Source: a virus. Taken from it: a DNA stretch of 42,797 nt. The notes below the pieces were generated by a model, which saw only the letters and a list, made by a program, of their open reading frames with translations, was not told the DNA's origin and made no database searches. The first letter of the stretch is position 1. The number at the start of each line of letters is the position of its first letter. Made by a program: the position numbers and the translations under genes. The stretch is from IMG/VR virus record IMGVR_UViG_3300042731_001127, positions 1 to 42,797 of that record. One strand, 5' to 3'. Positions 1 to 34,241 of the stretch are shown piece by piece.

Positions 1-277
1 CTAGCATTAAATTAGGATTATGATATGTCCATGCAAATTGATAATTTTCTGCATTTTTATTATCATATCTTCCTATCATACTAAACGCTTCAATTTTATC
101 ATTATCGTAGTAAGCTATAATATCATTGTTGTAAAATTCGCTTTCGAACAATGGCATTACACTTTTAAATTTCTTATATTCACAATAGGTCTTATAGATA
201 CCTTGTAAATATTCAACGTCTATTTCATCATTAGTTAATATTTTTGCATTCATCAAACCGCTATAGTTTGTTTGCAT
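1..277 (-). CDS. Unrecognised protein, 3' end cut by window edge
   Basis: An open frame of 92 codons runs off the left edge. Its ATG at 277-275 shares one base with the TGA stop of the upstream radical SAM gene (TGATG), so translational coupling supports this start. A second in-frame ATG lies at 253-251, and neither has a clear Shine-Dalgarno sequence. The visible part is rich in Tyr, Asn and acidic residues. It contains a stretch reading roughly 'IIAYYDNDKIEAFSMIGRYD' followed by an aromatic FAWTYHNPN motif. The alternating hydrophobic pattern could belong to an acetyltransferase-like (GNAT) fold, but that is a weak guess from an incomplete protein. It is the last visible gene of the glycosyltransferase/radical SAM operon. 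The + strand frame over the same bases is most likely a shadow. Confidence 0.6.
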   Translation of the reverse strand, partial: MQTNYSGLMNAKILTNDEIDVEYLQGIYKTYCEYKKFKSVMPLFESEFYNNDIIAYYDNDKIEAFSMIGRYDNKNAENYQFAWTYHNPNLML

Positions 278-1809
278 CAAATTAATTCTACAGAAACGCA
301 ATCGTATTCCTCCTCTTCATCATATTCGAGGATGTTGTCTGGTAATTTTTTTCCAGTAATGTTTTCATATTCGTCCATCAAATTTTTATTTCTACGTTTA
401 ATCATCCACCATTTTTCATCATAATTTAATTGTTCTAGTTTTGCGTATGCTTGTAGTAATCGTACAATACGTACTCGTATATTATTATTTTTATAAACCC
501 AATTTTTTGTTGCATCATCTCTTATACCCATATCGTGTGCCATGGCAGTAATAGGAGTGCCGCTGTATAATTGCATAGTTGGGCCGAAACTAATTCTACG
601 CATATATTTAAATCCGTTTAGAGGATTTATTTCAAAAAAACCTCTTTCTTTTAAATTATCAAGCATAGTAAGTGTTTCCTGAAAATCTTTTTTAGTTTCT
701 GTAGGATAGCCTACAAGCATCATAATGCCAATTTTTACATTATTAGCTTTCAGTTGCTCAAAAGTATACCACATGTCTTCGTTTGTAAAACCCTTTTGCA
801 TATGGTTTCTTACAGCTTCGCTTGCAGATTCAATACCTATAGATACCATATTAGCTCCGCCGCGTTTCATAAGTGTAAAGTCTTCCGGCGGCATTTGTGT
901 TTTACTACGAGCAATAAATTGGCTTTGCCAACTCCAGTCTTTGTCTCCTGTTTCTTTTCTATAGTCGGCTAGCGTTTTACACATATCTCTAAATGCCTTC
1001 ATGCTTCCGTTTACAAGACTATCTGTAAATTCAAATGCTTCAATATTATTGTTTTTACGAACATCAATAATTTCTCCAGCAATATGTTCTCCGCTTCTAA
1101 ATTTATATTTAGGCCACATTGCTGCAACATCACAAAAAGTGCAATTTCTTACACAACCTCTGCTACCAGTAATATAAGCAATTCTTTCAGGACTTTGTTC
1201 TATACTATAATCGTCCCAATTAATATCTTCATAATTAGGATAAAGGATTGTATCTAAGTCAAGTATTTGATGACTGCTGCCGTCTATTCCGGGATGATCA
1301 AAATTTTCATTTAATAAACTAATTAAACTTTCTTCGCCATCTCCTTTAATAATATGGTCAGCATAATCAGCAATTTGACGTTTAATATTACTATCAGTGC
1401 CTAACTCCATATTAAAGGTTCCTGCACCTCCAATAATAATCTTTTGTTCTGGACATATTTCTTTAATGCGTCTGCCTAAAAATTTTGCAAATAACGCCGA
1501 GTAATTACTGAAAATACTTAAACCTATATACTTTGTATTGTAAGATACTAAAGTTTCTGCCCAATAGTTTACTCTAGACTCTATATTAGGATAAAACTCT
1601 AACCATTTATCAAGTTTATACCAGACTTGATCTGCTGCAAACCAATGATGTTCATAATCTTTTCCTAAATGATGAAACATATCTATATTGATATCCATCA
1701 CAGTTGCATCAAATCCATTCTCTTCACAATGTGCCTTTAACACAGAAGGCCCTACAGTAGGAGCATCAGGCTGAATTTTTGGCAGTATGCAGATTATAAT
1801 ATCTTTCAT
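277..1809 (-). CDS. Radical SAM enzyme with B12-binding-like N-terminal domain
   Basis: The protein has 510 residues. Residues about 1-170 look like the Rossmann-type B12-binding domain that precedes many radical SAM cores: a hydrophobic first strand, an IGLSIFS strand, an IIIGGAGTF strand and a KGDGEESL segment. The cobalamin-ligating DxHxxG motif is not visible. The radical SAM core follows, with C219, C223 and C226 in the CxxxCxxC arrangement that binds the 4Fe-4S cluster, a 'FTDSLVNG' strand typical of this class, and GIESASEAVRNHMQKG. Family knowledge predicts SAM-dependent radical chemistry such as methylation, rearrangement or thioether formation; the substrate cannot be read. It starts at ATG 1809, overlapping the TGA of the upstream radical SAM gene by four bases (ATGA), so the two are probably co-translated. 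The glycosyltransferase-rich operon suggests a sugar or glycan substrate (inference). Confidence 0.88.
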   Translation of the reverse strand: MKDIIICILPKIQPDAPTVGPSVLKAHCEENGFDATVMDINIDMFHHLGKDYEHHWFAADQVWYKLDKWLEFYPNIESRVNYWAETLVSYNTKYIGLSIFSNYSALFAKFLGRRIKEICPEQKIIIGGAGTFNMELGTDSNIKRQIADYADHIIKGDGEESLISLLNENFDHPGIDGSSHQILDLDTILYPNYEDINWDDYSIEQSPERIAYITGSRGCVRNCTFCDVAAMWPKYKFRSGEHIAGEIIDVRKNNNIEAFEFTDSLVNGSMKAFRDMCKTLADYRKETGDKDWSWQSQFIARSKTQMPPEDFTLMKRGGANMVSIGIESASEAVRNHMQKGFTNEDMWYTFEQLKANNVKIGIMMLVGYPTETKKDFQETLTMLDNLKERGFFEINPLNGFKYMRRISFGPTMQLYSGTPITAMAHDMGIRDDATKNWVYKNNNIRVRIVRLLQAYAKLEQLNYDEKWWMIKRRNKNLMDEYENITGKKLPDNILEYDEEEEYDCVSVELI

Positions 1810-2720
1810 CTTTTCTTCTTTTTCAACTTTTTTGTTATTCTTAAATCAGTACCGCAGTTACACCAGTCTCGAGGACATATTTGCATTTTCTTTTCAAGTT
1901 TATAACCTGTGTTAATATTTCCTATTTTACCAAATGCTTTACATTCAGATCCGTATATATCTCCATTAGCTTCTATACCAATGTAGTCTATTCCTGCAGC
2001 ACATAGCCAACCTTTAAAATTATTTTTCTTTTGGCTTATGAGTTTTCTAGTGTCAATTTCTTTACCAAACAATCTTGTACTTTCGTCCCAAATTTTATTA
2101 TACTTGCCAACATGCTTACTATTACTTATATAGTTCAATTGTTTTTTATTGTATGCTGATAGTACTTTTCCTGAACCTGTCCAGTCAGACACTACTTTCA
2201 TCCACATTATACAAGGTATGTTTTTTTCTAAAAAATACTGATGTACTTTTTTAACTTTTGTAAAATATTCTGGAGGACACATAAGATAAAGAACTATATT
2301 ATAGCCTTTTTCTGACAGTATATTTATTACTTTTTCAATATGTAAATAGTCTGCAAATTCAGGATGGTAACTAATAACTACTTCAGATACGTTTGCTCTC
2401 CAATCTTGCCAGTAACGCAACGTCCTACTTGCATTTGTAGAAAAAGTAATAAAAGTATTATCACCGGTTGTATTTAAATCATTACAAAATTCTTCAAATT
2501 GCGGCCAAAGAGTAGGCTCGCCTCCCATGATATCAAATTTCAATGGAAGATCTTCTCTAAATTCTTTTGCTATTTTTATAATTTTACTATAATCCGACTT
2601 CCATCTGTCGTACCCTGCATTTAATTCAGGAATACAATAGCTACACTTATAATTACAATATGTATGTGATACCCAAGTAATACTTTTATATCTAGGTATT
2701 GTATCGAGTCGTAAACCCAA
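1806..2720 (-). CDS. Radical SAM protein with SPASM/twitch-like C-terminal cysteines
   Basis: The protein has 304 residues. C22, C26 and C29 form the CxxxCxxC cluster motif, followed by the GGEPTLWP signature (usual GGEP strand of radical SAM barrels) and FSTNAS. The C-terminal part holds C240, C260, C282, C287 and C289 around a 'GIEANGDIYGSEC...GKIGNI' pattern. This resembles the SPASM/twitch auxiliary Fe-S domain of peptide- or sugar-modifying radical SAM enzymes. The tail is strongly basic (KKLKKKKR). No ATG fits: the start is TTG at 2720-2718, with GGAG five bases upstream; an ATT one codon earlier is possible. The upstream small gene ends two bases before, and the next radical SAM gene overlaps by ATGA. 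The pair may act in sequence on one substrate (inference). Confidence 0.88.
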   Translation of the reverse strand: MGLRLDTIPRYKSITWVSHTYCNYKCSYCIPELNAGYDRWKSDYSKIIKIAKEFREDLPLKFDIMGGEPTLWPQFEEFCNDLNTTGDNTFITFSTNASRTLRYWQDWRANVSEVVISYHPEFADYLHIEKVINILSEKGYNIVLYLMCPPEYFTKVKKVHQYFLEKNIPCIMWMKVVSDWTGSGKVLSAYNKKQLNYISNSKHVGKYNKIWDESTRLFGKEIDTRKLISQKKNNFKGWLCAAGIDYIGIEANGDIYGSECKAFGKIGNINTGYKLEKKMQICPRDWCNCGTDLRITKKLKKKKR

Positions 2721-2722
2721 AA

Positions 2723-2944
2723 TTACTCCAATAACAAATTAACATTTTTTCCAGGGCCTACTTTACTTGGCAAATCGCCATATTTTTCAATGTACCATTC
2801 AATTACTGCTTTGTACCAATTTTGACTATTATGGTGTGCTTGTTTATTAAATTGCCATATATTATTATTTGTAGCCTGTATGGTATTTAGTGCTCTTGCA
2901 CTTTCTAATTGTAGATCTCTGAGAGACAACTTATCTAAGTTCAT
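2723..2944 (-). CDS. Small unrecognised protein, 73 residues
   Basis: I do not recognise this protein. It is 73 residues, mostly predicted helical, with a Leu-rich amphipathic N-terminus (LDKLSLRDLQLESARAL), a polar Asn/Gln-rich middle and a Trp/Tyr-rich segment (NWYKAVIEWYIEKYGDLP). No membrane segment or signal peptide is visible. It overlaps the upstream methyltransferase-like gene by ATGA and ends two bases before the TTG start of a radical SAM gene. This position in a coupled operon argues that it is a real gene. It could be an accessory subunit of one of its neighbours, but nothing in the sequence proves that. Confidence 0.65.
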   Translation of the reverse strand: MNLDKLSLRDLQLESARALNTIQATNNNIWQFNKQAHHNSQNWYKAVIEWYIEKYGDLPSKVGPGKNVNLLLE

Positions 2945-3891
2945 GGTCTTCCTATCATCATAAAACGTTTGTATCCATATAATTCTTTTTCACCTGCATA
3001 CTCAATTCTGCCCATAGGAAATTTTTTCTTCATATGATCTAAACTATGTACACATAAGTGGTGTTCTGGTATATCAAATAGATTATTTGTTTGAATTACA
3101 AATAATGGATCTGTTTCCATAGGACGATTAATAAATTTATGATACCAAAGACTACTCATGTGTTCTGCGCTTGTATTTACAATCAAATCTGGAACGGTTT
3201 TTTCTTGAAAGGATGTATCCTTTGAATAATTTTTTACTTCGTATTCTACACCTGTTCTGTTTACCCAAGACATGTTTTGTAATTCTTCTGAATCAGTATT
3301 TAATGGTAATCTCACATTTCCCGACTTTACACAATAATTATCAATACAGTCTAAATTAAAAATGCTATCACTAACTTCTGCTGCGACTGGATCGCATTCT
3401 AAAATTCTTAGTTTATCATATTTTATTCCTGCTTTATCAAAATACAATCGACTTTGACCAAACCATCCTGCGTGAACATGAATCATTTTAAAATTATTTT
3501 TTATTTTAGAAAGTTCGTTTACCATCCAAACTTTACTTTTTACTTGTCCTCGACTAAATGCATCTGCTAAAATATTCATATCATAGTTGTTACGCCCGTA
3601 TTTGTGAAAAATATCTAAAATAGGCACATTTTTTAATCTTTTCCTCATAATACTAATTGTTTCTACAAAATCTATAGGATCGCTGTCTAATAATTTAAAA
3701 TAAAAATTAAACCTAGATAATCGTTCATTATTATCACCTACATCAGATAAACATAAATTTTTTACACTATTTGCTCTGTTATCACTAAAATATACACTTA
3801 TTAGCTGATCTATAAAGAGTTTACTTTCTGTATCTCTATCAAAGTCAAAATATTCTTGTAGCCCGTATAACCAACTAGGAGGTTGACTCAT
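2941..3891 (-). CDS. Rossmann-fold protein, probably SAM-dependent methyltransferase-like
   Basis: The protein has 316 residues. The N-terminal 110 residues are helical and unrecognised. From about 135 a class I methyltransferase-like order can be seen: a first strand with a Gly-containing turn (IHVHAGWFGQSRLYF), a second strand ending in an acidic residue (LRILECDP), then PDLIVNTSAEHM at the usual motif IV position, and a late strand FVIQTNNLF. The canonical GxGxG of motif I is not intact, so SAM binding is inferred from the fold pattern only. It starts at ATG 3891 with AAAGGAG seven bases upstream, inside the end of the duplicated glycosyltransferase gene (17-base overlap). It ends in an ATGA overlap with the small gene downstream. 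A role in methylating a glycan or intermediate would fit the operon; an unrelated Rossmann-fold enzyme is also possible. Confidence 0.6.
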   Translation of the reverse strand: MSQPPSWLYGLQEYFDFDRDTESKLFIDQLISVYFSDNRANSVKNLCLSDVGDNNERLSRFNFYFKLLDSDPIDFVETISIMRKRLKNVPILDIFHKYGRNNYDMNILADAFSRGQVKSKVWMVNELSKIKNNFKMIHVHAGWFGQSRLYFDKAGIKYDKLRILECDPVAAEVSDSIFNLDCIDNYCVKSGNVRLPLNTDSEELQNMSWVNRTGVEYEVKNYSKDTSFQEKTVPDLIVNTSAEHMSSLWYHKFINRPMETDPLFVIQTNNLFDIPEHHLCVHSLDHMKKKFPMGRIEYAGEKELYGYKRFMMIGRP

Positions 3892-5488
3892 TATATTTCT
3901 CCTTTAACCACTCAAAATCATTAATTTTTTTCAACGCTTCGATATTACCTTTATTTGATTCTCCGTACTCTCTGCCAGAAAGTGCTCCTGCAATAGCATA
4001 GTTGCCAAAAGGTCTATCTTTACCTACACTACACCATACATCTAACCTATCTTCGGTTTCTTTGTCTTTTTGTCTATCGATAACTTTTGAAGATAGTTTA
4101 CAACATTCTCTAAAAGCACTACGCCAAGTATTAAAAGAATCTGTATTAAAAGCAGTAATATTACTTACTTGATGTATCTTTTTAAATTTTGTACTAATAC
4201 TTGTTGTCATATCAGGTTTAGTGGTATCCATATCAGCTGTTAGTTTTCTAGGTAATAACTTAACTGCTCCATAGCCGTATACTAAATCATTTATTGGATT
4301 TATACTATCACAAACATGTACTACATCTAAATCCCATTTTGAAACTTCATAACTAAAATCAAAATTATCATCTATTATAGCATCTCCATCTACGACCCAA
4401 AACATCTCAGTATCGCACATATTTGCAGCAATCTGATGTGCTTGATGGATACCTTTAATATTGTTTAATCTTTTTGCTTCTGGATACTTTTCTTTTAATC
4501 TTTTAAAGTTTTCGTCTGCATTAGATTCTCCGTAAGTAATCATTACAATATCATACTTAGAATTTTTTAAGATATCTTTACTTGAATCGATTACTAAACT
4601 ACTCTTTAATCTAGGTGGATTCCTATAAACTGTTTTAAAGAAAACACTTTGCTGTGCATCTAACGGTTTTGCAGATATAGGAACATTTAATTCGTTAATA
4701 AGTAAACTGCCTAAATTTTCTGTTTGCTTGTCTATGTCAGCAATATCTTTATTATCCCAATAATTGTTTAGCCATTCAAAATCACGTACATTAATATAAT
4801 CCCAGTCTGTACACATAGTCTTATATAAACCTTCTCTTGCACCGTGTATTGCCCAACGTCCATTTTTAACATCTATTCCTACCATTAACCAAATATACAA
4901 TCTAGTTAAATTTTTCCAATGACTAGTTAAAAGTTCTTCTTTAGATACTTTTGCGCCTTCTGATAAAGCCATTTTAACACCTTCACGAAATCCTGCTCGC
5001 CAGGCTTGTTGAGGAGTTTCGTTGTTATGGACTGTAGAAAAGCATCCGTCTTGCTGAATATATTGCATGTCCCAACAAAAATCTACTTGAGCACGAATGT
5101 TATTAACCTCTGCATTTTCGTGTGTTTTCATATCTAAAACATGTTGTTTAGGCCAACATTTTATTCCACCATTGCCATAAGTTAATCCATTTATAATATT
5201 TTTTCCGCACCAACTTATTACTGCTTTAGATAAATCAGCATGATCATAAAATATAATTTCTTGATTTAAAAAATCCGAATTAATAATGTTGTCGCCGTCG
5301 ATAGTAATAAATCTTTCAGTTTCTGAAAGTTCTGCACAGGCTTTGTGTGCTGAATCAGATCCCTTTACTCCATGTACTCGTTTAGCCCATGGAACTTTAG
5401 AGCATAAATCTGCATAATTTTTTTCAGCATTTGGCTCGTCATAACTAAGATATATAATATCATAATCTTTAATCTTTAAAGTCTTCAC
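3875..5488 (-). CDS. Internally duplicated glycosyltransferase-like protein
   Basis: The 537 residues consist of two full copies of one domain, about 9-245 and 312-535, offset by 303 residues. Both copies contain a first strand followed by SYDEPNAEKN or TYGESNADEN, then VKG..xAH and a DGD motif (D64-D66 and D367-D369). Later they share YGxGxxKxxP, a WRxxFREgxKx segment, a Gly/Ala-rich 'YAIAGA' or 'WAIHGA' segment and a terminal DFEWL. The strand plus DxD-like DGD resembles metal-dependent GT-A nucleotide-sugar transferases; similar proteins are known in T4-like cyanophages. The start is GTG at 5488-5486, one base after the upstream stop, with AAGGAG six bases before it. Both DGD motifs are intact, so both domains may be active. 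Donor and acceptor are unknown. Confidence 0.75.
   Translation of the reverse strand: MKTLKIKDYDIIYLSYDEPNAEKNYADLCSKVPWAKRVHGVKGSDSAHKACAELSETERFITIDGDNIINSDFLNQEIIFYDHADLSKAVISWCGKNIINGLTYGNGGIKCWPKQHVLDMKTHENAEVNNIRAQVDFCWDMQYIQQDGCFSTVHNNETPQQAWRAGFREGVKMALSEGAKVSKEELLTSHWKNLTRLYIWLMVGIDVKNGRWAIHGAREGLYKTMCTDWDYINVRDFEWLNNYWDNKDIADIDKQTENLGSLLINELNVPISAKPLDAQQSVFFKTVYRNPPRLKSSLVIDSSKDILKNSKYDIVMITYGESNADENFKRLKEKYPEAKRLNNIKGIHQAHQIAANMCDTEMFWVVDGDAIIDDNFDFSYEVSKWDLDVVHVCDSINPINDLVYGYGAVKLLPRKLTADMDTTKPDMTTSISTKFKKIHQVSNITAFNTDSFNTWRSAFRECCKLSSKVIDRQKDKETEDRLDVWCSVGKDRPFGNYAIAGALSGREYGESNKGNIEALKKINDFEWLKEKYNESTS
3920..5465 (-). repeat. Intragenic duplication of a GT-like domain (two copies)
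   Basis: Two diverged copies of a roughly 230-codon domain lie in one reading frame, copy A at about 5465-4750 and copy B at about 4555-3880. They are recognised from matching protein motifs in the same order (strand-SYDEPNA / TYGESNA, DGD, YGxG, WRxxFRE, DFEWL). They are separated by about 65 residues of unrelated linker. Boundaries are approximate. Confidence 0.75.
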
Positions 5489-6091
5489 TTAAAACTCCTT
5501 TATTGTATAACTATCAAATTTTTTATTTGTGTATATACTATAATTCTTATTTAAAAAGTCATTATTATCAAAAGGTATTATAACAGTATTATCTAAAAGA
5601 TCCTTAATATTAACAATTAATGTTCTATATAGCAAATGCGGATCTCCTTTACTAGTTATACTAAAGTATAAATAATCCGAAGCTACTGATTCTATTTTAT
5701 CATATTGCTTATACAAATCTTCTGTAACACAAATTTTCCAAATTTTGTTTTGGAAATCTTTTATAATATGTATTTCTGCATCGTCATGACTGCATGTTAT
5801 TTCAACAAAATTATTTTTTAAATTTTCTATTTTTGCACTATCTTTTTTTTCTAGTTTGTATTTTTTTTCTTGCTTATTCCAAACTACAAAATAATTTATT
5901 ATGTGTTCTTTACCTGAATTAAATTCTGCTGCTACATTATTTGTAATTTCAAAAAAATCGTCACTATCGTTTGTGTGATTTTTTATTGCAAGAACACTGC
6001 CTGTTTTTTTATCGTAATGACAATACCAAGCTGGTTTTTGATGTGCTATAGCATTTAATCTAGCAAATTTCTTTTTAAAGTTTGTCGGCAC
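5489..6091 (-). CDS. Unrecognised protein, 200 residues
   Basis: I do not recognise this protein. The N-terminus is basic (KKKFARLNAIAHQKPAWYCHYDKKTG), followed by alternating beta-strand-like segments that often read like 'FVVWNKQEKKYKLEK'. The HQKPAWYCHYD/TGSVLAIKN opening looks like a compact beta domain. No membrane span or signal peptide is visible. The start is GTG at 6091-6089 with only a weak GAGA upstream, overlapping the preceding glycosyltransferase-like gene by 17 bases. Its stop abuts the GTG of the duplicated glycosyltransferase-like gene, whose Shine-Dalgarno lies inside it. The position argues for co-expression with, and perhaps a structural role alongside, the transferases. 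No function is claimed. Confidence 0.65.
   Translation of the reverse strand: MPTNFKKKFARLNAIAHQKPAWYCHYDKKTGSVLAIKNHTNDSDDFFEITNNVAAEFNSGKEHIINYFVVWNKQEKKYKLEKKDSAKIENLKNNFVEITCSHDDAEIHIIKDFQNKIWKICVTEDLYKQYDKIESVASDYLYFSITSKGDPHLLYRTLIVNIKDLLDNTVIIPFDNNDFLNKNYSIYTNKKFDSYTIKEF
5495..5500 (-). promoter_or_regulatory. Ribosome binding site that fixes a GTG start for the duplicated GT-like gene
   Basis: AAGGAG on the - strand lies six bases before GTG at 5488 and inside the last codons of the preceding gene. It makes GTG the most likely start, and the conserved first domain strand begins nine codons later. Confidence 0.8.
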
Positions 6092-6935
6092 TTAAATATC
6101 TCTCATACTTGTTTATAAGTTCATCTGTTACAAAGCTATCTTCTACATAATGAAAAATTGTACTTTGTTTGTAATTTCCAATTTTTAAATTTAAATCATC
6201 ATCCATATATGCATTTACATACTCTTGCCAACTATCTCTTACATTACTAAATCCTTGATGAAATGTTTTCATGTGTGTAAAATTAACATCTTTTATAAAA
6301 TTGTTTGTTACTTGATGTTTAAGGCCTAACATTTGTATTGCTAATGCTGCACTTACGTCAATACTCGCCCATTTTTGAAAAGCATTTCCGCCAATATGTT
6401 CAGCATAAATCATTTGCCAATTATTGTTAATATGTTTTAAACATTTGTAGAATTTTTCTGTAATATTAGATTTTTTAAAATAGTGAACTCCTACATAGAT
6501 GTTAGGCAGAAAATATCTTAAAAACGCTTTCCTATAATGCCACATACCTTCTTTTATTTTTTCATTCCTAAAAGTTTTAACATTAGTTGTAAAAAATAAA
6601 TCGTAAGATTTGAAATGATCCCACCAGTGAGTAATATCTTCTAATACTAGCATATCTGTATCTAATACAATAGTTTCTTCAAAAGGAGTACACGTATAAA
6701 TTTTCCAACGATTTTCAATTTTCCATACAGAATCTTTTGCATCGTCTGAACCAGGTATATCTATTATATAATCAAATACTTTTTTATATTCTTGCGGTAC
6801 TACTTCGTTTGTTATTAAACAAGTTTTATTAAATTCTTTTTGTGTTGCTTTTATACTACATGCTAGAAGATATGCTTGTTTTACATAATTTACTTTTTCG
6901 TTATTTTGGGCTAGAAATACAAATCCTTTAGACAT
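6075..6935 (-). CDS. Glycosyltransferase-like protein with DxD motif (GT8/GT-A type)
   Basis: The protein has 286 residues. An N-terminal strand GFVFLAQNN is followed by a helix (VKQAYLLACSIK), then TCLITNEVV and the hydrophobic-flanked motif IVLDTDMLVLED with D92 and D94. This is the arrangement of GT-A enzymes that bind a nucleotide sugar through a metal. The 'YVKQAYLLA' pattern before a 'T.LITN' strand is typical of glycogenin/GT8-like proteins. Later aromatic segments (WWDHFKSYDLFFTTN, HYRKAFLRYFLPNIYVGVHYFKKS) would form the acceptor side. No signal peptide or membrane anchor is visible, so cytoplasmic action is expected. It starts at ATG 6935 with AAGGAA six bases upstream and overlaps the paralogous gene before it by eight bases. 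The sugar and acceptor are unknown. Confidence 0.75.
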   Translation of the reverse strand: MSKGFVFLAQNNEKVNYVKQAYLLACSIKATQKEFNKTCLITNEVVPQEYKKVFDYIIDIPGSDDAKDSVWKIENRWKIYTCTPFEETIVLDTDMLVLEDITHWWDHFKSYDLFFTTNVKTFRNEKIKEGMWHYRKAFLRYFLPNIYVGVHYFKKSNITEKFYKCLKHINNNWQMIYAEHIGGNAFQKWASIDVSAALAIQMLGLKHQVTNNFIKDVNFTHMKTFHQGFSNVRDSWQEYVNAYMDDDLNLKIGNYKQSTIFHYVEDSFVTDELINKYERYLSADKL

Positions 6936-7791
6936 TTTTAATTCCTTTGTATAATCTATCTAAACTAAACTTATTCATAACATGTACATCTAATGTATCT
7001 GTCTTATGTAACACATAATCTGTTGACTTAGGTTTTCCTGTAAGAAAAGTTAATCTTTCATTTTCTAGATTATGTAAAATATCTCTGTCTAAAGTATAAA
7101 ATATCTTACTTGGCATAGACTGAAATAAATTAAAATTACCGTAATCATTCATGATATGTATGGCTATACTAAATGCATAATCATTTCTATACATTGTTCT
7201 AGGTAAATTATACAATAAAACGTAATGATACCAGTTAGCTTGTATATGTTTTATCAAATCAAAAAACACTTTATTTTTTTCAGTTTTTTCAAAATATACA
7301 ACTGTAGCCCAGTAAAAGGGTATTCCGCCATCACTTACATATGAAAACTCTTTGTTATATTTTTCATCTAAATCTGTACCTAAATATTTACTATCTTTAA
7401 ATATTAAAAAATCATAAGACTGATTAAAACAATTTTTTAATTTATCACTACAAATAATATAATCTACATCCATTAAAAGAGTATTATCATACGGAGAATA
7501 ATCATAAGCAAAAGGACGTTTGTTATTTTTAAAATTAAGAATTTTTTTATCTGTTAATCCGTCATGATATACTCTATTATTAGAAATTAGATCATCATCT
7601 ATTTCAATAATTTTATCAAATACTCTAGTAGCATCATTAAAATTATTTAAGAGATATTCTTTATCTTTTGTTACAATAGAAGTTGGCAAATTTAAATATT
7701 TGTTAATACGCTTTGCAAGTTCATAGGCCTGTAAAACATAGTCAACATCTTGATTATTATCTGCAAATAATAAAACACCATTAGTCATCAA
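6928..7791 (-). CDS. Second glycosyltransferase-like protein with DxD motif
   Basis: The protein has 287 residues and is a diverged paralogue of the next gene. It shares the opening strand (GVLLFADNN), the helix beginning DYVLQAYELAKRI, a TSIVTKD strand, the metal-site motif LLMDVDYIICSD (D108, D110), and a conserved YVSDGGIPFYWATVVYFEKT segment. GT-A fold and nucleotide-sugar transfer are inferred from these. Two starts are possible: TTG at 7791 (nine bases after GAGG) or ATG at 7788 (twelve bases after it); translation would differ by one residue. It overlaps the 117-residue gene upstream by up to 11 bases and the paralogue downstream by eight, so all three are probably translated together. 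The duplicated pair suggests two successive sugar additions (inference). Confidence 0.72.
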   Translation of the reverse strand: MMTNGVLLFADNNQDVDYVLQAYELAKRINKYLNLPTSIVTKDKEYLLNNFNDATRVFDKIIEIDDDLISNNRVYHDGLTDKKILNFKNNKRPFAYDYSPYDNTLLMDVDYIICSDKLKNCFNQSYDFLIFKDSKYLGTDLDEKYNKEFSYVSDGGIPFYWATVVYFEKTEKNKVFFDLIKHIQANWYHYVLLYNLPRTMYRNDYAFSIAIHIMNDYGNFNLFQSMPSKIFYTLDRDILHNLENERLTFLTGKPKSTDYVLHKTDTLDVHVMNKFSLDRLYKGIKNV

Positions 7792-8134
7792 AAACTATGT
7801 CCTCAACACTTCTTTTTTTTGTTAGACTAGAATATTTTTCATAATAATTTTTAGATTCAAAAAGATATATTTCTAATATTTCATTATAAAATTCGATAAG
7901 ATTTTCAATTAGAATAGGATCTTCATTTTCGTCTATCAAAACTATATTTTGTGATTGATTATTATCAACTAGTATTTTACAAAATGTAATTAGATTATAC
8001 GAAATTCTAAATGTACCTTTGTTTTTATAAAATAAACAACTTCCATTAAAGGACTCTCGGGCTTGATGCTTTTCTTTCTCGAGTGTTAGATGATAATTTG
8101 TAAATTCGAGTGCTTTTTCTAATTTAGAATCCAT
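7781..8134 (-). CDS. Unrecognised protein, first gene of the cassette, 117 residues
   Basis: I do not recognise this protein. It is 117 residues: a charged helical N-terminus (LEKALEFTNYHLTLEKEKHQ), a beta-like centre with CLFYKNKGTFRISYNLITFC, and an acidic, Leu/Ile-rich helix (ENLIEFYNEILEIYLFES). The C-terminus ends with charged residues VEDIVFDD. The start is ATG 8134 with AGGAG seven bases upstream. It is the first gene behind the perfect sigma70 promoter at 8158-8186 and overlaps the first glycosyltransferase-like gene. Being first in the operon is compatible with an accessory or regulatory role, but no DNA-binding motif is evident. Confidence 0.7.
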   Translation of the reverse strand: MDSKLEKALEFTNYHLTLEKEKHQARESFNGSCLFYKNKGTFRISYNLITFCKILVDNNQSQNIVLIDENEDPILIENLIEFYNEILEIYLFESKNYYEKYSSLTKKRSVEDIVFDD

Positions 8135-8157
8135 AATTATACTCCTGTTTTAATTAT

Positions 8158-8186
8158 ATTATACAGGAATACTTTCTAGTTGTCAA
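8158..8186 (-). promoter_or_regulatory. Consensus sigma70 promoter for the glycosyltransferase/radical SAM operon
   Basis: On the - strand, TTGACA lies at 8186-8181 and TATAAT at 8163-8158, exactly 17 bases apart; both hexamers match the bacterial consensus fully. The -35 box begins six bases after the stop codon of the tail-structure gene at 8192. The first gene of the cassette starts 24 bases beyond the -10 box, which leaves room for its AGGAG. No TATAAATA-type late box and no hairpin-plus-T-run terminator is visible between the two operons. Confidence 0.9.
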
Positions 8187-8191
8187 GAGTT

Positions 8192-9244
8192 TTATAGAGT
8201 GGTTCCAGTAGCATTTGAGCTTGTAGTTGGCGCATCAATCTCAATCACATTGTTAGCATCTTGGGCTCTAAAAATTTGAATAGTGCTTGTTAATGTTCCG
8301 TCAACTGATGGGTCAACGGCTGGTTCTACTTTACCATCTGCGAATGTTGCTCCGCCATAGTCGTCGTCGGCATCAGTAAATGTTGCTCTTAAAGTAATGA
8401 TAGTAGGATTAGTTGCATCATCAACTTTTGCCGTTAATGTTAAAGTGTTAACTGCATATGTACTACCTGTAACACTAAGTATAGTTTGTTCTGTTGTGGT
8501 TAGATCAAAAAATCCAATATTAGAAGTGGTTACACCTGTGCCATCACCTGTAATTGTTGTTGCAGTTCTATTCATTTTAACTGTGCCAATATATGTTGAT
8601 AACATATTTGTCCAGTCAGTATTTTTTGTGTGAGATGCGCCGCCAGAACGAGAACCATACCAACGAACTTCGCCGCCTGTATTAAAAAATGCTCTAGCAT
8701 GATTAGCTGCTGTAAGAGTAGCAGTGTTCCCACTATCAGACGTTTTAGATTGTCCTGCAAAAGTAACTGTCATGTAGTGATCTAAAGTTTCAAATGCCCC
8801 GTATCCCCAATCTGTTGTACGTTCTTTAGAACTTGCTGCGTCTGCTGCAATATATCCGCTATCTACTAAATTTCTATCACTTACAGCATTTGCAGCTTCA
8901 GAAATATAATCGTTCCAACCTTGTTGTAACAATGTAAGACTTCCAACATCTGTTCCGCTTGCATCTGCACCAATGATATTACCTACACTTACTTCTTGCA
9001 CAGCAAATCCAGTTCCGCCTACTTGATGTAATCTACATGTATAAATGTCTAAATAAAGTTTGTTTAGATCATCCGCTGTAACAGTTGCACCTTCTGCTAC
9101 TGCGTTACTTTCTAAAGGTTGACCATACCCTTGATTAGATGCTGCATTGCCTTGTGTTCCTTGTGGTACTCCTAACACATTGTTTATATCATTTCTAATA
9201 TTGTTATAGTCTGTATCTTGGATTATTCCGCCAACTGCTACCAT
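8192..9244 (-). CDS. Virion structural protein, probable tail-fibre component
   Basis: The protein has 350 residues rich in Thr, Ala, Gly and Asn, with almost no Lys. The N-terminus (VGGIIQDTDYNNIRNDINNV) is a short domain common in marine T4-like structural proteins. It is followed by a helical VTADDLNKLYLDIYTCRLHQ segment, a Gly/Ser-rich linker and, from about residue 200, beta-sandwich-like strands (TTEQTILSVTGS, TLTLTAKVDD, TIITLRATFTDAD). The composition and context are those of an adhesin-like fibre or decoration protein. It starts at ATG 9244 with AAGGAA upstream, nine bases after the third fibre gene, and no promoter is evident between them. It is the last gene before the sigma70 promoter of the cassette. 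Specific receptor function cannot be read. Confidence 0.68.
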   Translation of the reverse strand: MVAVGGIIQDTDYNNIRNDINNVLGVPQGTQGNAASNQGYGQPLESNAVAEGATVTADDLNKLYLDIYTCRLHQVGGTGFAVQEVSVGNIIGADASGTDVGSLTLLQQGWNDYISEAANAVSDRNLVDSGYIAADAASSKERTTDWGYGAFETLDHYMTVTFAGQSKTSDSGNTATLTAANHARAFFNTGGEVRWYGSRSGGASHTKNTDWTNMLSTYIGTVKMNRTATTITGDGTGVTTSNIGFFDLTTTEQTILSVTGSTYAVNTLTLTAKVDDATNPTIITLRATFTDADDDYGGATFADGKVEPAVDPSVDGTLTSTIQIFRAQDANNVIEIDAPTTSSNATGTTL

Positions 9245-9253
9245 ATTTTTTCC

Positions 9254-10801
9254 TTAACACTTAATAAAACATTCAACCAGTCTAGGAGTGTCACTCGTTC
9301 CGGCATCTTCTTCTAGTATATATCCAACACGCTTTAATTGCAATGACATATTTGGTTCTGTAGTTCCAATTCCATCTTCTTCATCTAAATATACTATTCC
9401 GCCCATTTTTGCTTGGCCTTTTACAAGTACAGGTACTCTTCCTACTAAACCAACAGCTTGTCCGTCAGCTTCTGAATTCATTAAATAAGCAGGTGCAGCA
9501 CTAATAATACCTATAGGATCAGCACCCATTACATGCGCTGGGCCAATTTCAGTGTTACCAGGGCCGCCAGTAATTGCAACAATAGTTCCGATTGGTAAAT
9601 CATTGTTTTCGCTTTTGTAAATTTCTGCAAGGTCTGCATATTTTGCTTGTGCAGCTATACCAAATAGTGTATTAGCAGCAATATTACCGCTATCGTCTCT
9701 TGCTACAATAGTATTTTCGTCAACTCCTGGATTGTAAGTGTATGTAGCGCCGATATATTCTCCATTAGCTACTGCTCCTACAAGCATTTCGTTTGATCTA
9801 TCGGCTACACCTTTAAATGCTTCGGCATGTACTTCGTTCCATTTATTTGCAACTGTGCCAATATTTCTATTACCTTGATCACCTGGATTAGAAGTATAAC
9901 CTGGTTGTAAACTATTATTGTCTACACGTAAAATATTAGTATATCCATTACCATTATATGTACTAAATTTAAGCAACTGTTGATTCATACGAATGTGGCC
10001 TTCATTGCCACCTGCGCCGTCAATAAAAATAGATAAATCTTGATCGTTACCTATTGTAATACCACTATCATTAAAGTTTACAAGTGCATTAAAATTAGCT
10101 TGATCAGATCTAATATAATTACTTGCATCGATGCCGCCTAACTTTTGTGCATTAGTTGCTGTTCCATAGAAAAAGTATTCTGAATTAATGCCGTTTTGAT
10201 CGTTACCTTTTAGTGTAATACCTTTTTTAATACTTCTGTTTTCGTCAACAAACCCATTATACTCGGCAAATTGTGTGCCGACGTCTTTAATTGTAAAGTT
10301 TTCGTTACTAAAAATTGCAATTTCTTCGTTATTAACAACAGCAACAACAACCGGTTTAGATGTGTTATCGTTTGCAATTATTTCTTTAGATTGCATTTGT
10401 GTAAGACCTTCACCTGCATCTTGGGGTCCGATAAAGGAAAAGTCTACACCGTTGTAAACATATAGCTGTTTGTTCTCTGTGTCAAACCATAAATCGCCTA
10501 GTGCTAATCCTACAGGTTGACTATTTGCAGTAGTTGTACCGCCTGTGGTTTTCCAAGCGCCGCCGTCATAGAATTTTAATTTATTTTCTCCGCTATCATA
10601 CCAAATCTGACCTGCAATTGGTCTAGGCGGTTGTTGCGCACTTGCAAAATTCTCTAACAAAAATACAAAGTTTTCGTTTTGTATTTCTCCATATCCTGCA
10701 AAGTTTTTACCAATTAATTTAATATCAGTAGAATTATCTACTGTACCGTCGGCAATGGTTGTTAGTGTTGCCCCGTTTGTTTTTTGTATGCTATATGCCA
10801 T
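9254..10801 (-). CDS. Tail-fibre protein 3 with Peptidase_G2-like C-terminus
   Basis: The protein has 515 residues. Its N-terminal 130 residues repeat the domain of fibre proteins 1 and 2: two tandem 'GxxWxDTxxxxLxxYNG' units (GQIWYDSGENKLKFYDG and GDLWFDTENKQLYVYNG) and the 'ENFVFLLENFA' helix. The middle is Asn/Gly-rich, beta-helix-like and has ADRSNEMLVGAVANG. The C-terminal 130 residues (LAEIYKSENNDLPIGTIV, IGIISAAPAYLMN, VGLVGRVPVLVKG) resemble the intramolecular-chaperone/Peptidase_G2-type ends that trim themselves off some phage appendages. That is inferred by pattern and needs a profile search. It starts at ATG 10801, with AGGGG six bases upstream and a CATAAATA box 23 bases upstream. 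Confidence 0.8.
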   Translation of the reverse strand: MAYSIQKTNGATLTTIADGTVDNSTDIKLIGKNFAGYGEIQNENFVFLLENFASAQQPPRPIAGQIWYDSGENKLKFYDGGAWKTTGGTTTANSQPVGLALGDLWFDTENKQLYVYNGVDFSFIGPQDAGEGLTQMQSKEIIANDNTSKPVVVAVVNNEEIAIFSNENFTIKDVGTQFAEYNGFVDENRSIKKGITLKGNDQNGINSEYFFYGTATNAQKLGGIDASNYIRSDQANFNALVNFNDSGITIGNDQDLSIFIDGAGGNEGHIRMNQQLLKFSTYNGNGYTNILRVDNNSLQPGYTSNPGDQGNRNIGTVANKWNEVHAEAFKGVADRSNEMLVGAVANGEYIGATYTYNPGVDENTIVARDDSGNIAANTLFGIAAQAKYADLAEIYKSENNDLPIGTIVAITGGPGNTEIGPAHVMGADPIGIISAAPAYLMNSEADGQAVGLVGRVPVLVKGQAKMGGIVYLDEEDGIGTTEPNMSLQLKRVGYILEEDAGTSDTPRLVECFIKC

Positions 10802-10823
10802 TGTTGACCCCTAGTTAATAATG

Positions 10824-10831
10824 TATTTATG
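10824..10831 (-). promoter_or_regulatory. Late-promoter-like box (CATAAATA)
   Basis: In the 42-base gap before the third fibre gene, the - strand reads CATAAATA, one base from the T4 late consensus TATAAATA. It lies 23 bases upstream of the ATG. A gp55-type sigma factor is encoded in this window, so recognition is plausible. The one mismatch makes it weaker evidence than the box at 40468. Confidence 0.5.
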
Positions 10832-10843
10832 CTAATATTATAA

Positions 10844-12562
10844 TTATGGCTGTGACACAACCTCTGTTGATTGGAACGCCCATACTTTGTTTCCTAATCC
10901 GTCATCTTCTACTCTATATACTCTAACTTCTCTTTCTACACCTGTGCTTAAATGAAAGATGCAGTGTATTCTTGCAGCAGTATGAATGTTTCTGTCACTA
11001 GCAGGCGCAATTTGTTCAATCCAGGTAGCTGTTATAGACTGATCGTATTTGCTGTCTTGTCCGTAATTTGTCATGTCTATTGCCAGAGATACAACTGTAT
11101 CTCTTGTTTTTATATCTACATAAGATTTGTTAGCAGCACTATTAGGTGCAGTAGGTGTAGCAACTCCGCTTACTTGTATATCAGCACTGTTATTTGTCAG
11201 TATTAAACTGCCATTAATATCCATTGTAAAAGAACCATTTGTACTAAGCGTATTACCTACAATATTTGGACCGTTTTGAATAGTAAGGTCTACAAGATCT
11301 CCTAATTGTTCTAAATTACTTTCAGTTACTGTTGTTCCTATTGTTGTTTGGTTTATGATAGGCAGATTTTGAATCTTGTAACCTTTTCCGGCAGTTAAAT
11401 TCCAATGATCGTTTGCAGTCCAATAATTTCCGTTTATAACATCAACTGTCCAAATAATTGTATGATCAGAATTGCCTTTTAAAGTAATGCCGCCACCGTT
11501 TGCAAATGCGTCTGTAGGCGTTTCTGTGGCCGCTAGATCTATATTTTTATCATCAACTTCTAAGGTTGCTGTATTAACAATTGTACTTGAACCATTAACA
11601 ACTAGATTGTTTTCTACTGTAAGGTCACCATTGACTGTAACATCTGCTCCGCCGACCGAAGGATAAAATTCTATTGATTTATTGCCAGGATTTATATCTA
11701 TTGCAATTTCATCAGTAGCACTACTACCTCTTAATGAAAACTGCATTTTTCTATTAGAGTTGTTATTTTTAAATACAGTATCTCTAGAACTATTTACAAA
11801 TAATTTAAAATATTCTTGAGCGTTACCTACTGAAAGGCCTCCATCATTTTTTATTCGTATAGTACCTGTTGTAGTGTCATTACTGTCTGCTCTTAATAAG
11901 CTGTTGATGTTTACGCCAGAAATACTTGTTGCATCAGTAGCTGTACCGCTAAGAACAGGATTTGTAGATCCTAGAGTGTTTAAAAAGTTTATACCTGCTA
12001 AAATATTTTCTGTTGTTAGACCGACAATTGTTTGTAGTGGTTTAAATTCTTCTTTGCTTGCAATAGCAAATCTTTGACCAGCAACATATAAAGAAGATAT
12101 AGTTTTAATTTCTCCACCATCATTAAGTATGTCTTCTGTAATAAATCCTGATTTACCTTGAGCTGATGTATAACTAGGTCCAACTAATGTAGGTTCGTTT
12201 ATGCCGTCACTAAAATAAAATTGTTTATCAGCAGTGTTTATCCATGTATCTCCTGCTACCATTACCGGTGTTGTTGCAGAAAGTATCGGTCCTCCACTTG
12301 TTCTCCATGATTTTGTAGTACCGTCATATACTTTTAATCTAGATTCCCCAGTGTCCCACCAAATTTGTCCTGGTAATGGAGATGTAGGAGCACTACTATT
12401 AGCAAAATTTTCTAATATTTTAATAAAATTTTCATTTATAGTTTCTCCAAATCCTGTATAATTTCTACCAATTAATCCGATACTTGTAGTTGTACTATCT
12501 AACAATCCGTCTGCTAGTGTAGTCAGTATAGATCCATTTGATGTATTGAGGATATAGCTCAT
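10844..12562 (-). CDS. Tail-fibre protein 2 (paralogue of 1 and 3)
   Basis: The protein has 572 residues. It starts with the same N-terminal module as its neighbours: a beta segment 'SYILNTSNGSILTTLADG', the 'ENFIKILENFA' helix, and two WxDT/YNG-type units (GQIWWDTGESRLKVYDG and GDTWINTADKQFYFSDG). Residues about 300-480 contain Gly/Asn-rich strands such as GDLTVENNLVVNGSSTIVN, typical of trimeric phage fibres in marine T4-like phages. The C-terminal 100 residues are a small beta domain rich in Arg and Val and may be the distal tip. The start at ATG 12562 overlaps the preceding gene's stop by four bases (ATGA), so it depends on that gene's translation. The function is a fibre subunit by composition and context; receptor specificity is unknown. 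Confidence 0.8.
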   Translation of the reverse strand: MSYILNTSNGSILTTLADGLLDSTTTSIGLIGRNYTGFGETINENFIKILENFANSSAPTSPLPGQIWWDTGESRLKVYDGTTKSWRTSGGPILSATTPVMVAGDTWINTADKQFYFSDGINEPTLVGPSYTSAQGKSGFITEDILNDGGEIKTISSLYVAGQRFAIASKEEFKPLQTIVGLTTENILAGINFLNTLGSTNPVLSGTATDATSISGVNINSLLRADSNDTTTGTIRIKNDGGLSVGNAQEYFKLFVNSSRDTVFKNNNSNRKMQFSLRGSSATDEIAIDINPGNKSIEFYPSVGGADVTVNGDLTVENNLVVNGSSTIVNTATLEVDDKNIDLAATETPTDAFANGGGITLKGNSDHTIIWTVDVINGNYWTANDHWNLTAGKGYKIQNLPIINQTTIGTTVTESNLEQLGDLVDLTIQNGPNIVGNTLSTNGSFTMDINGSLILTNNSADIQVSGVATPTAPNSAANKSYVDIKTRDTVVSLAIDMTNYGQDSKYDQSITATWIEQIAPASDRNIHTAARIHCIFHLSTGVEREVRVYRVEDDGLGNKVWAFQSTEVVSQP

Positions 12563-14574
12563 TCTAATTCTCCATGATATATAATATAGTTTACAGTCTG
12601 ATACGGAGGCATTATATTAATTGGTTCATTAACAGGTTCGTTAATATTATCTCTATAAATTATACCAGTTCTATTTAAACCAGAGGTTGTTGCTGCAATG
12701 TCTTGGGCTAATCCTAAGGTGTTGCTTACACCTTCAGCTGTTGTGTTTGCTTCTGTATCCGTTACAGCATAAAATTGATCGACACCTACATTACTATCGG
12801 CATTTGTTGATTCAAATTTGTGACGGTGTTCTGGTAAATTACGTTGTCTAATAGTTAGTTCACTGGTTTTTGCATTGCTCAATCCTAATGTATCTGCAGA
12901 TGTATCTAAAGTTCTATTAGCAGACGATCCTCCCATGTTATCTGCACCTAACGGTAATCTCCCTCTTAAATCAGGTAATTTAAAATTACCCGAAGTTACA
13001 GTGCTAATAGGACCATAATTATATCCTATAACAAGAAAGAGAGATTCGTAATCTATAATTAATACTTCGCTACCGTCGCATAATTTCCAACCATCAGGAG
13101 CAGTTGGGCCACCAAAAGGAACGATTGTACCTACCGGAATTTGCGGCAATGCTGCTCTAATTATATTAAATGGTACTTTGAAAAGTTGTCCACCACGCTG
13201 TATAAGATATGTATCAGTATCAGCAGCCGTACTTACAGTATCTTTATTAGTAACAAACGTACCAGCAATATCTGCAGATATAGTAATATTTTGTGTGCCA
13301 TCTATTTCAAATGGCTCACTACTGATATCACTATTAGCACCGCCAAACTGCACCTGTATAGGAGAATCCCATCTTTGCGCACTTGTAGCTCTACCTTGGA
13401 AATTTCCTAGTAATGTTTCTGCAATAACTGTATTTGTATAAACAGTATTGTATGGACTATTAACAGATCCTATTTCACCTTGTGTTGTACTCGGAGTAAT
13501 AGAATTACTAATAACAGAAGAAGTGTTTAGTGTACCAGCTGTAATCTCACCTGTAAATGTACTAGTGCCTGTAACGTCTAAGTTTCCAGTAATGTCTGCA
13601 TCACCTTGTAGAGATAAATCTCCATTTTCTCCTTGCACATCAGTTCCTGTAACTTTAATGTTTCCTGCAACATGTAGTGCTTCGTCTGGATTTGTATTGA
13701 TACCTACTCTTTCAGTGCCCTGTACTCGCAATACTTGTTTTGTATTACCGTTTGCATTTGTAACACTTATATTAATATTACTGTTTTGGCTGCTATGTTT
13801 AATGTTACCGGTAACACCGCCGACTTCTAAACGCATAGAACTATCTAATCCTACACTTAATCCTTGGTTGCTTCTAATAGTTAATGCTTCGTTGCTTATA
13901 TTAGCTTGATCTTTTCGCATAAATTGATTGCCGGGGACACTTGTTCCGTCTACAACTAAATTATTAGACCTATCTGCAATACCGTTTATAATTACATTAG
14001 ATGAAACATTTAATCCTGCTTTGATTGTTGTAAAACCTGGAATAAAGTTTTTTGGCGTAAATGTTTCAGTACTAACAATACCAATAGGTTGGCCTGCTGC
14101 ATACAAAAACAATACTGTTTTTTCTAAATTACTAACATCAACGATAACATCAGCTTTAGCACCTGTAATCAAACCTTCTGAATATTCAGGACCTATTAAG
14201 ACCCAGTTAGTTCCATTCCATAAATATAATTGTTGTGAACTTGTGTCGCTCCATAAATCTCCAGGAGAACTAATAGCACCTGCTGGACGTACTGCACCAG
14301 ATTTTAAACCGCCTGCATCTAACCAGTTTGCACCATTATAAACTTTTAATCCGCCTGCTGCACTGGTGTCGTACCATAATTGTCCTATACTTGGTTCTCT
14401 AGGTGCCGTTGTAGCTGCAAAATTTTCTAAAAGATGTAGCAAACTTTCATCAATTTTTACACCGTAGCCTGGATATCCTCTACCTGGTAAATCTAAACTT
14501 GTTTGCTGGTTAATGGTATTATCTTCAATTGTTAAACTTTTGATTCCATCACTGTAAAAAACTTGAATTGCCAT
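12559..14574 (-). CDS. Tail-fibre protein 1 with phage tail-collar domain
   Basis: The protein has 671 residues. The N-terminal module (ESLLHLLENFAATTAP, GQLWYDTSAAGGLKVYNG, GDLWSDTSSQQLYLWNG) is shared with fibre proteins 2 and 3 and probably attaches them to a common baseplate site (inference). A Gly/Asn/Thr-rich shaft of short repeats follows (GNLDVTGTSTFTGEI). The C-terminus, about residues 495-671, is a tail-collar (Pfam Phage_tail_collar type) domain: PVGTIVPFGGPTAPDGW, then CDGSE, FKLPDLRGRLPLG, LPEHRHKFE and NIMPPYQTVNYIIY. In T4-like phages this domain trimerises fibre ends such as gp12. The start at ATG 14574 has GAGGG seven bases upstream inside the previous gene's 3' end. No promoter box is evident immediately upstream. 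Confidence 0.87.
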   Translation of the reverse strand: MAIQVFYSDGIKSLTIEDNTINQQTSLDLPGRGYPGYGVKIDESLLHLLENFAATTAPREPSIGQLWYDTSAAGGLKVYNGANWLDAGGLKSGAVRPAGAISSPGDLWSDTSSQQLYLWNGTNWVLIGPEYSEGLITGAKADVIVDVSNLEKTVLFLYAAGQPIGIVSTETFTPKNFIPGFTTIKAGLNVSSNVIINGIADRSNNLVVDGTSVPGNQFMRKDQANISNEALTIRSNQGLSVGLDSSMRLEVGGVTGNIKHSSQNSNINISVTNANGNTKQVLRVQGTERVGINTNPDEALHVAGNIKVTGTDVQGENGDLSLQGDADITGNLDVTGTSTFTGEITAGTLNTSSVISNSITPSTTQGEIGSVNSPYNTVYTNTVIAETLLGNFQGRATSAQRWDSPIQVQFGGANSDISSEPFEIDGTQNITISADIAGTFVTNKDTVSTAADTDTYLIQRGGQLFKVPFNIIRAALPQIPVGTIVPFGGPTAPDGWKLCDGSEVLIIDYESLFLVIGYNYGPISTVTSGNFKLPDLRGRLPLGADNMGGSSANRTLDTSADTLGLSNAKTSELTIRQRNLPEHRHKFESTNADSNVGVDQFYAVTDTEANTTAEGVSNTLGLAQDIAATTSGLNRTGIIYRDNINEPVNEPINIMPPYQTVNYIIYHGELE

Positions 14575-14577
14575 TTA

Positions 14578-15192
14578 TTAACCCTCACTAAACCCTGTTA
14601 AACTTTGAACTCTTACAGTATAATCAATTTGTATCAGTCTGTTTAAACTCTTTTGTACAGGATGGAAAATGACATGTGTTAATAGTCTACCTGTACCGTT
14701 TGGAGAATAACTTTTTAATCCTAGCTCGTCAAATACATAAAGACTTTCTGTATTTGTAGCATTATCAAAAGCGTCTTGTCCGTCTGGTTCGCCGTAATCT
14801 AACAAACAACTAATGTATACATCTGTATAGTTTGTTCCACTTACGTGTCTTGTTTCTATTTTGTTGCGTATAGGATCAAGATTATTTACACTTCTATCGT
14901 CTACAACTTTACTGAATGTTTCTTTGTATAGGCTTGCATTTGTTCCAGTACTGTTAGGAGTAAGATATGTAATTATTCCTGTTGGATCTACACTTGTTCC
15001 GCCATTTCCAAAGGCCATTTCATATATAAACCCTTGACCTGCATTTCCTAAACTTTCTGCAAGTGCAATACTCATATTCTCATAATGGATTGCATTTGGT
15101 TTATCGATTAGAACTTCACCCGATGTAGGATCATGTATTTTTATATGGCCTTTGACATAAACGCCGCTATGTTCATTTGTTTGTTTCATCAT
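14578..15192 (-). CDS. Virion structural protein, 204 residues
   Basis: The protein has 204 residues, with the opening SGVYVKGHIKIHDPTSGEVL and a later 'FIYEMAFGNGGTSVDPTGII' segment. The Gly/Thr-rich strands and a C-terminal LTHVIFHPVQKSLNRLIQID segment suggest a beta-rich structural protein. Proteins of this size and style are usual near the fibres of marine T4-like phages, but I do not match it to a T4 gene; it is shorter than T4 gp8 or gp9. The start is ATG at 15192, and a second ATG is the next codon (MMKQTN). A late-promoter-like AATAAATA lies 19 bases upstream, overlapping the stop of the giant gene. It probably belongs to the baseplate-fibre junction (inference). Confidence 0.7.
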   Translation of the reverse strand: MMKQTNEHSGVYVKGHIKIHDPTSGEVLIDKPNAIHYENMSIALAESLGNAGQGFIYEMAFGNGGTSVDPTGIITYLTPNSTGTNASLYKETFSKVVDDRSVNNLDPIRNKIETRHVSGTNYTDVYISCLLDYGEPDGQDAFDNATNTESLYVFDELGLKSYSPNGTGRLLTHVIFHPVQKSLNRLIQIDYTVRVQSLTGFSEG

Positions 15193-15210: not shown

Positions 15211-15218
15211 TATTTATT
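15211..15218 (-). promoter_or_regulatory. Late-promoter-like box (AATAAATA)
   Basis: The - strand reads AATAAATA, one base from TATAAATA, 19 bases upstream of the 204-residue structural gene's ATG. It overlaps the TAA stop of the giant gene. The spacing is close to the 18 bases seen for the perfect box upstream of the gp48-like gene. Confidence 0.55.
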
Positions 15219-34232: not shown

Positions 34233-34241
34233 TTTATTCTC

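Follow-up and report, generated by a model that had tools for sequence, protein, structure and literature searches.

A conserved glycosyltransferase core with radical SAM arrays beside the tail genes of T4-like phages, and its possible role in glycan modification of the infected cell

What purpose the many radical SAM genes of phages serve has been an open question since the Campylobacter phages in 2010, which carry 11–12 such genes (PMC2853527). The question is raised again by viral DNA in which two radical SAM genes share a tightly packed cassette with glycosyltransferase-like genes. An earlier note on this DNA knew of no described pathway with exactly this gene set, which is too strong: related clusters are already published, both in T4-like phages that carry several radical SAM genes (PMC2853527 and PMC5332604) and as GT8 glycosyltransferases with radical SAM genes near tail fibres (PMC7029224). 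As far as the literature searched is concerned, the new features here are a fixed core, two insertion points, a link of array size to a pair of a methyltransferase and a 73-aa protein, and a separate promoter. The conserved operon is a docking site for radical SAM arrays, and its gene set looks suited to the synthesis or decoration of an unusual glycan or of a product that carries sugars.

The window and its cassette

The window, i.e., the whole stretch of DNA analysed, is the entire 42.8-kb IMG/VR record (IMGVR_UViG_3300042731_001127). Its gene content is T4-like, with a gp55-like late sigma factor at 40583 and an SbcD/gp47-like nuclease at 41453, and baseplate proteins (33459–36599) and tail proteins (9254–14574) are also encoded. 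For the conserved gene at 14578–15192, the closest isolates, at 56%, are two jumbo phages, Sinorhizobium phage Phosso (469 kb) and Agrobacterium phage Atu_ph07 (490 kb), and phages of the GAP32/121Q type match it at 44–45%. Given that cassette-bearing relatives occur on contigs of up to 330–400 kb, the window is probably a piece of a jumbo phage. We also noticed a structural protein of 4757 aa at 15214–29487, the homologues of which have ~4450 aa in Atu_ph07 and 4555 aa in Phosso.

The cassette consists of ten minus-strand ORFs, nine complete and one partial, which fill the stretch between 8134 and the end of the contig, with neighbours overlapping or separated by 0–2 nt; the tight packing described in the earlier note is hence borne out by the ORF coordinates. 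The unit begins exactly at its own promoter (8186–8158). At the other end, the partial gene (2–301) encodes the start of a weakly ATE_C/GNAT-like protein of 141 aa that is interrupted by the contig end and is complete in a relative (L115:11503–11928; ATE_C with an E of 0.004, under the cut-off). In all seven cassette genes with a computable ratio, dN was smaller than dS (the gene of the 73-aa protein is saturated in dS), and the seven are therefore selected coding genes. An Rfam search gave no match, and a search of a defence library gave nothing beyond weak viperin-like and candidate matches.

Glycosyltransferases, methyltransferase and small proteins

Two cassette genes (minus strand, as for all those below) encode paralogues (hhalign, 99.8%) that had been noted as DxD transferase-like proteins. 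The product of 6075–6935, with the motif VLDTDM, shares with glycogenin a DxD motif and a profile match in the PDB (E of 7e-6) that spans only ~100 residues, and its D92, D94, H221 and H262 are invariant among relatives. The product of 6928–7791 has the motifs LLMDVDY and, at the C terminus, HVMNK, with D108, D110 and H270 invariant among relatives; its profile match to glycogenin is weak (E of 0.04), and its relation to GT8 is supported by the paralogy. With the conserved DxD and the C-terminal His in both, the sequences point to GT8/glycogenin-like proteins with putative transferase activity.

The third glycosyltransferase-like protein (3875–5488, 537 aa) is internally duplicated, with halves 30% identical (E of 4e-27), which agrees with its earlier description as a duplicated DGD protein, and AlphaFold models it as two GT-A domains (pLDDT 88.8). 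The top structural matches of the model are two-domain polymerases, the first being the E. coli K4 chondroitin polymerase, and the bacteriocin glycosyltransferases SunS/ThuS are also among the matches. When single domains were aligned to GT-A chains, Z was 9–11 for the second domain and up to 9.4 for the first, so that a GT-A fold is predicted in both. At the sequence level, the protein stayed below the cut-off of the curated family Glyco_tranf_2_3 (15.5 bits vs 27), and a profile search against the PDB gave no match. The two domains are joined by a linker at residues 304–307 (4568–4579), where pLDDT drops below 50. The three glycosyltransferase-like proteins that had been counted are thus indeed three, with four GT-A domains among them.

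The protein encoded at 2941–3891, which had been regarded as Rossmann/methyltransferase-like, is modelled with a class I SAM-dependent methyltransferase fold and an N-terminal helical domain (pLDDT 92.1). Its structural matches include BioC (Z of 15.9, with an rmsd of 2.5 over 162 residues) and NodS (Z of 15.4), consistent with the Rossmann methyltransferase fold.

The remaining small proteins, with 117, 200 and 73 aa, have no convincing match to anything searched. The 117-aa protein (7781–8134) is the product of the first cassette gene, belongs to no recognised family and gave no match in the isolate search. The 200-aa protein (5489–6091) evolves fast, sharing 20–31% identity with the proteins that relatives encode in this position. 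The 73-aa protein (2723–2944), which adjoins the radical SAM array, is in contrast among the most conserved in the cassette (54–84% identity among relatives), and no relative was found in the isolates or cellular genomes searched. When it was examined for a leader/core pattern of RiPP precursors, none was seen; the protein is cysteine-free and conserved over its full length.

Recurrence of the core and its radical SAM arrays

The earlier note had proposed to look for the gene set in marine phage genomes, and recurrence in related phages was found for a set larger than first stated. The core, which is composed of the 117-aa protein, the two GT8-like paralogues, the tandem GT-A protein, the class I methyltransferase and the 73-aa protein, is syntenic across dozens of viral contigs of up to 400 kb, and relatives mostly keep the identical gene order. 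Scans of viral contigs gave 102 relatives of the tandem GT-A protein, 33 of the methyltransferase and 244 of the 73-aa protein. For a sample independent of the cassette, the tail gene 14578–15192 served to select contigs that had at least 9.9 kb downstream of it (n = 48). Both GT8-like genes lay next to the tail genes in 43 of these 48, and the gene of the 117-aa protein was present in 40; in the remaining five without the GT8-like pair, the cassette may be out of reach owing to longer tail genes. Searches of isolate phage DNA and proteins gave no homologue for most core genes, and genome-collection scans with the tandem GT-A and 73-aa proteins, which are sensitive to close relatives only, gave no cellular relative.

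The two radical SAM proteins reported in the earlier note both pass the Radical_SAM cut-off of Pfam, with CxxxCxxC motifs of CVRNCTFC (277–1809) and CNYKCSYC (1806–2720). The former (E of 2e-16) is of the B12-binding type, with the B12-binding domain itself (4e-5) under the cut-off. Its matches in NCBIfam to the PhpK P-methyltransferase (E of 2e-27) and the RiPP C-methyltransferase (E of 7e-26) were far under the cut-offs, with 95.6 of 600 bits and 90.9 of 281.85 bits, respectively. The latter (Pfam, 1e-9) has a MoaA/viperin-like core and a C-terminal Cys cluster but reached only 31.4 of 180 bits for the prokaryotic viperin in NCBIfam and 24.9 of 170 bits for N_Twi_rSAM (NF033640), the cut-off of which is passed by several array members in relatives (225, 422 and 317 bits). 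Close relatives of 277–1809 occur in few loci, and this gene is one sample from a variable radical SAM set.

The radical SAM genes are concentrated at two fixed points, namely 3' of the gene of the 73-aa protein and between the two GT-A domains. At the former, a radical SAM gene lies within 400 nt after the gene of the 73-aa protein in 48 of 64 distinct cases. At the latter, which falls on the linker modelled with low confidence in the tandem GT-A protein, the two halves across relatives are, as counted from best matches, fused in 17 loci, adjacent in 53 and 1.2–9.1 kb apart in 45, and all of the 45 inserts contain at least one radical SAM gene. Array size is linked to the presence of the methyltransferase and the 73-aa protein, as seen in loci that include the tandem GT-A protein and at least 5 kb downstream: those with the pair have 2–12 radical SAM genes (n = 102) and those with neither have 0–4 (n = 16), where the two groups are in part clades and the larger one is enriched by sampling, so that no p-value is given. 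The most radical SAM matches in a whole record were 17, an extreme density seen in the records behind L015 (G007, 55.9 kb) and L062 (G020, 41.1 kb). Array content differs widely among phages; cargo in some relatives includes GDP-mannose dehydratase/epimerase, UDP-glucose dehydrogenase, DegT aminotransferase and GDSL/SGNH families, and many unrelated families are also inserted. We also noticed amidinotransferase-like proteins near the cassette in two relatives (L115:13143–14354 and L007:14596–15804), the former of which matches HsvA, SxtG and GATM in the PDB with an E of 2e-10 to 1e-5.

Published systems resemble this locus in part. In pelagimyophages of SAR11, the host recognition cluster between VrlC and gp14 contains GT8 glycosyltransferases and radical SAM cassettes, which were read as O-chain modification (PMC7029224). 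Judged by its description, that cluster is likewise a variable island beside T4-like tail fibres with GT8 and radical SAM cassettes, whereas the locus examined here has a fixed core order, its own sigma-70 promoter, a constant pair of methyltransferase and 73-aa protein, and a jumbo-phage lineage. According to the available part of PMC2853527, the Campylobacter phages CP220 and CPt10 each carry five radical SAM genes in an interchangeable block, and radical SAM genes are paired there with glycine amidinotransferase, comparable to the amidinotransferase-like gene in L115; no glycosyltransferase core is described in that part. The marine T4-like virus TARA_ERS488813_N000010 has 12 radical SAM genes, the arrangement of which is not given in the available part of PMC5332604.

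In Phosso and Atu_ph07, too, a homologous tail module precedes an operon that contains several radical SAM genes, but these operons carry peptide-maturase-like enzymes and a Cys/His-tailed protein instead; relatives of the GT8-like, tandem GT-A and methyltransferase proteins were looked for in the two phages and none was detected. The tail-adjacent proteins (L277:24351–25271 in Phosso and L276:25062–25952 in Atu_ph07) are 38% identical overall and end in CHTSCHASCHSSRSRR and CHSSCHASCHNSRSRR, respectively, with CH[ST]SCHASCH[SN]SRSRR kept at the C terminus, and RiPP-maturase-like radical SAM genes flank the gene. The Cys/His-tailed protein is a likely substrate of radical SAM enzymes; a search for such tails in the relatives of the window gave none.

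Promoter, timing and target of the cassette

The cassette is preceded by a sigma-70 type promoter, TTGACA-17-TATAAT (8158–8186, minus strand), which is the sole 12/12 match in the window. A promoter with at most one mismatch was found upstream of the first cassette gene in 52% of relatives vs 0.6% of random 90-nt stretches. The late motif ATAAATA, on the other hand, is rare in the window (7 observed vs 38 expected), and four minus-strand copies (10824, 15211, 32981 and 40468) are directly upstream of structural genes, where they mark four structural transcription units. In relatives, the motif precedes 89% of the 14578-type and 75% of the 9254-type genes against a background of 0.7%, and is absent or nearly absent before the glycosyltransferases, the methyltransferase and the gene of the 73-aa protein. 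Analogy with T4 suggests that the cassette would be read early by the host polymerase. One subgroup of 15 loci has a late-type motif ahead of the first cassette gene, and this subgroup has few radical SAM genes. In L052, L061, L065, L066, L068, L074 and L078, the late-type ATAAATA replaces the sigma-70 promoter upstream of the gene of the 117-aa protein.

The reading that we favour, albeit tentatively and at somewhat less than even odds, is that this separately promoted operon of jumbo T4-like phages makes a glycan with which part of the infected cell, most likely the envelope, is decorated. Host RNA polymerase would transcribe the operon early in infection from the sigma-70 promoter, and the three proteins with four GT-A domains would assemble a short glycan, the sugars of which would be tailored by interchangeable radical SAM enzymes together with the class I methyltransferase; in relatives, the GDSL/SGNH, epimerase, dehydrogenase and aminotransferase proteins would also take part in the tailoring. 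The product would then decorate a component of the infected cell, most likely an envelope glycan, and the surface might thereby be changed, for example so that competing phages are excluded. Four GT-A domains, the methyltransferase, and the nucleotide-sugar enzymes and GDSL-type proteins of relatives argue for a glycan, so that, of the earlier proposal of an unusual-sugar cassette, action on a glycan stands as the best-supported reading of the sequences. Phage fibres as its target have become less likely, since the cassette has a sigma-70 promoter and the tail genes have T4-like late motifs; expression of the early type makes the infected cell a more likely site of the target than the virion, consistent with the reading of GT8 genes in PMC7029224. 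Some observations speak against this reading: many array radical SAM proteins are as peptide-maturase-like as sugar-enzyme-like, the subgroup of 15 loci has the late-type motif, and the GT8-like core is conserved nearly like the tail genes, above the expectation for an optional surface modifier.

That last observation, together with the position of the cassette directly downstream of the tail module, belongs equally to the strongest rival, in which glycosylation and radical tailoring by the enzymes are directed at the tail proteins of the phage itself. The upstream tail proteins are rich in Ser/Thr (22% S+T in 8192–9244), and the radical SAM operons of Phosso and Atu_ph07 encode the Cys/His-tailed protein at the same spot; nonetheless, the relatives of the window lack such a tail, the two isolates lack GT8-like genes, and the promoter of the cassette is early-type as opposed to the late motifs on the tail genes, and we consider this rival possible but doubtful. 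A phage-specific pathway in which the constant 73-aa protein or tail proteins are the shared substrate of the glycosyltransferases, the methyltransferase and an interchangeable array of as many as twelve or so radical SAM enzymes, with diversified, glycosylated and radically modified polypeptides as the outcome, appears unlikely. Modification of the 73-aa protein or a peptide in the manner of RiPPs is decidedly improbable: its gene heads the array and co-occurs with it, the closest families to 277–1809 are PhpK and the RiPP C-methyltransferases, and SunS/ThuS are among the structural matches of the tandem GT-A protein, but whole-length conservation without cysteine or a leader/core pattern differs from most RiPP precursors.

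The wide variation of array content and the insertion of many unrelated families could also mean that a hotspot beside the tail genes takes up radical SAM genes as unrelated cargo, which would share no pathway with the glycosyltransferases. This is quite unlikely, given that array size tracks the presence of the methyltransferase and the 73-aa protein, and that a radical SAM gene is in the insert at 45 of 45 separated tandem GT-A loci. Glycosylation of modified phage DNA, as in T4, would fit early expression, but no match to DNA glycosyltransferases was found and the nearest proteins are glycogenin and polysaccharide/protein glycosyltransferases, which makes this explanation highly improbable. 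With the arrays tied to a conserved core of glycosyltransferases, methyltransferase and 73-aa protein with its own promoter, the question of the radical SAM genes becomes one of testable constructs; the analogous operons of Phosso and Atu_ph07 offer laboratory hosts, and their Cys/His-tailed protein is a concrete candidate substrate.

A possible hairpin (8139–8172, minus strand) has its 5' arm in the promoter spacer and its 3' arm over the ribosome-binding site of 7781–8134. A hairpin common to the lineage was rejected, and the hairpin was dropped as a main argument, because significance under a strict shuffle was left in a subset alone (strong in 14 of 54 sequences; overall p of 0.04); the fold of the whole region has a z of only -1.4. 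In the folding model, the hairpin might close the ribosome-binding site in read-through transcripts only: the predicted unpaired probability of this site in the window is 0.02 in the read-through transcript and 0.52 in that from the predicted start.
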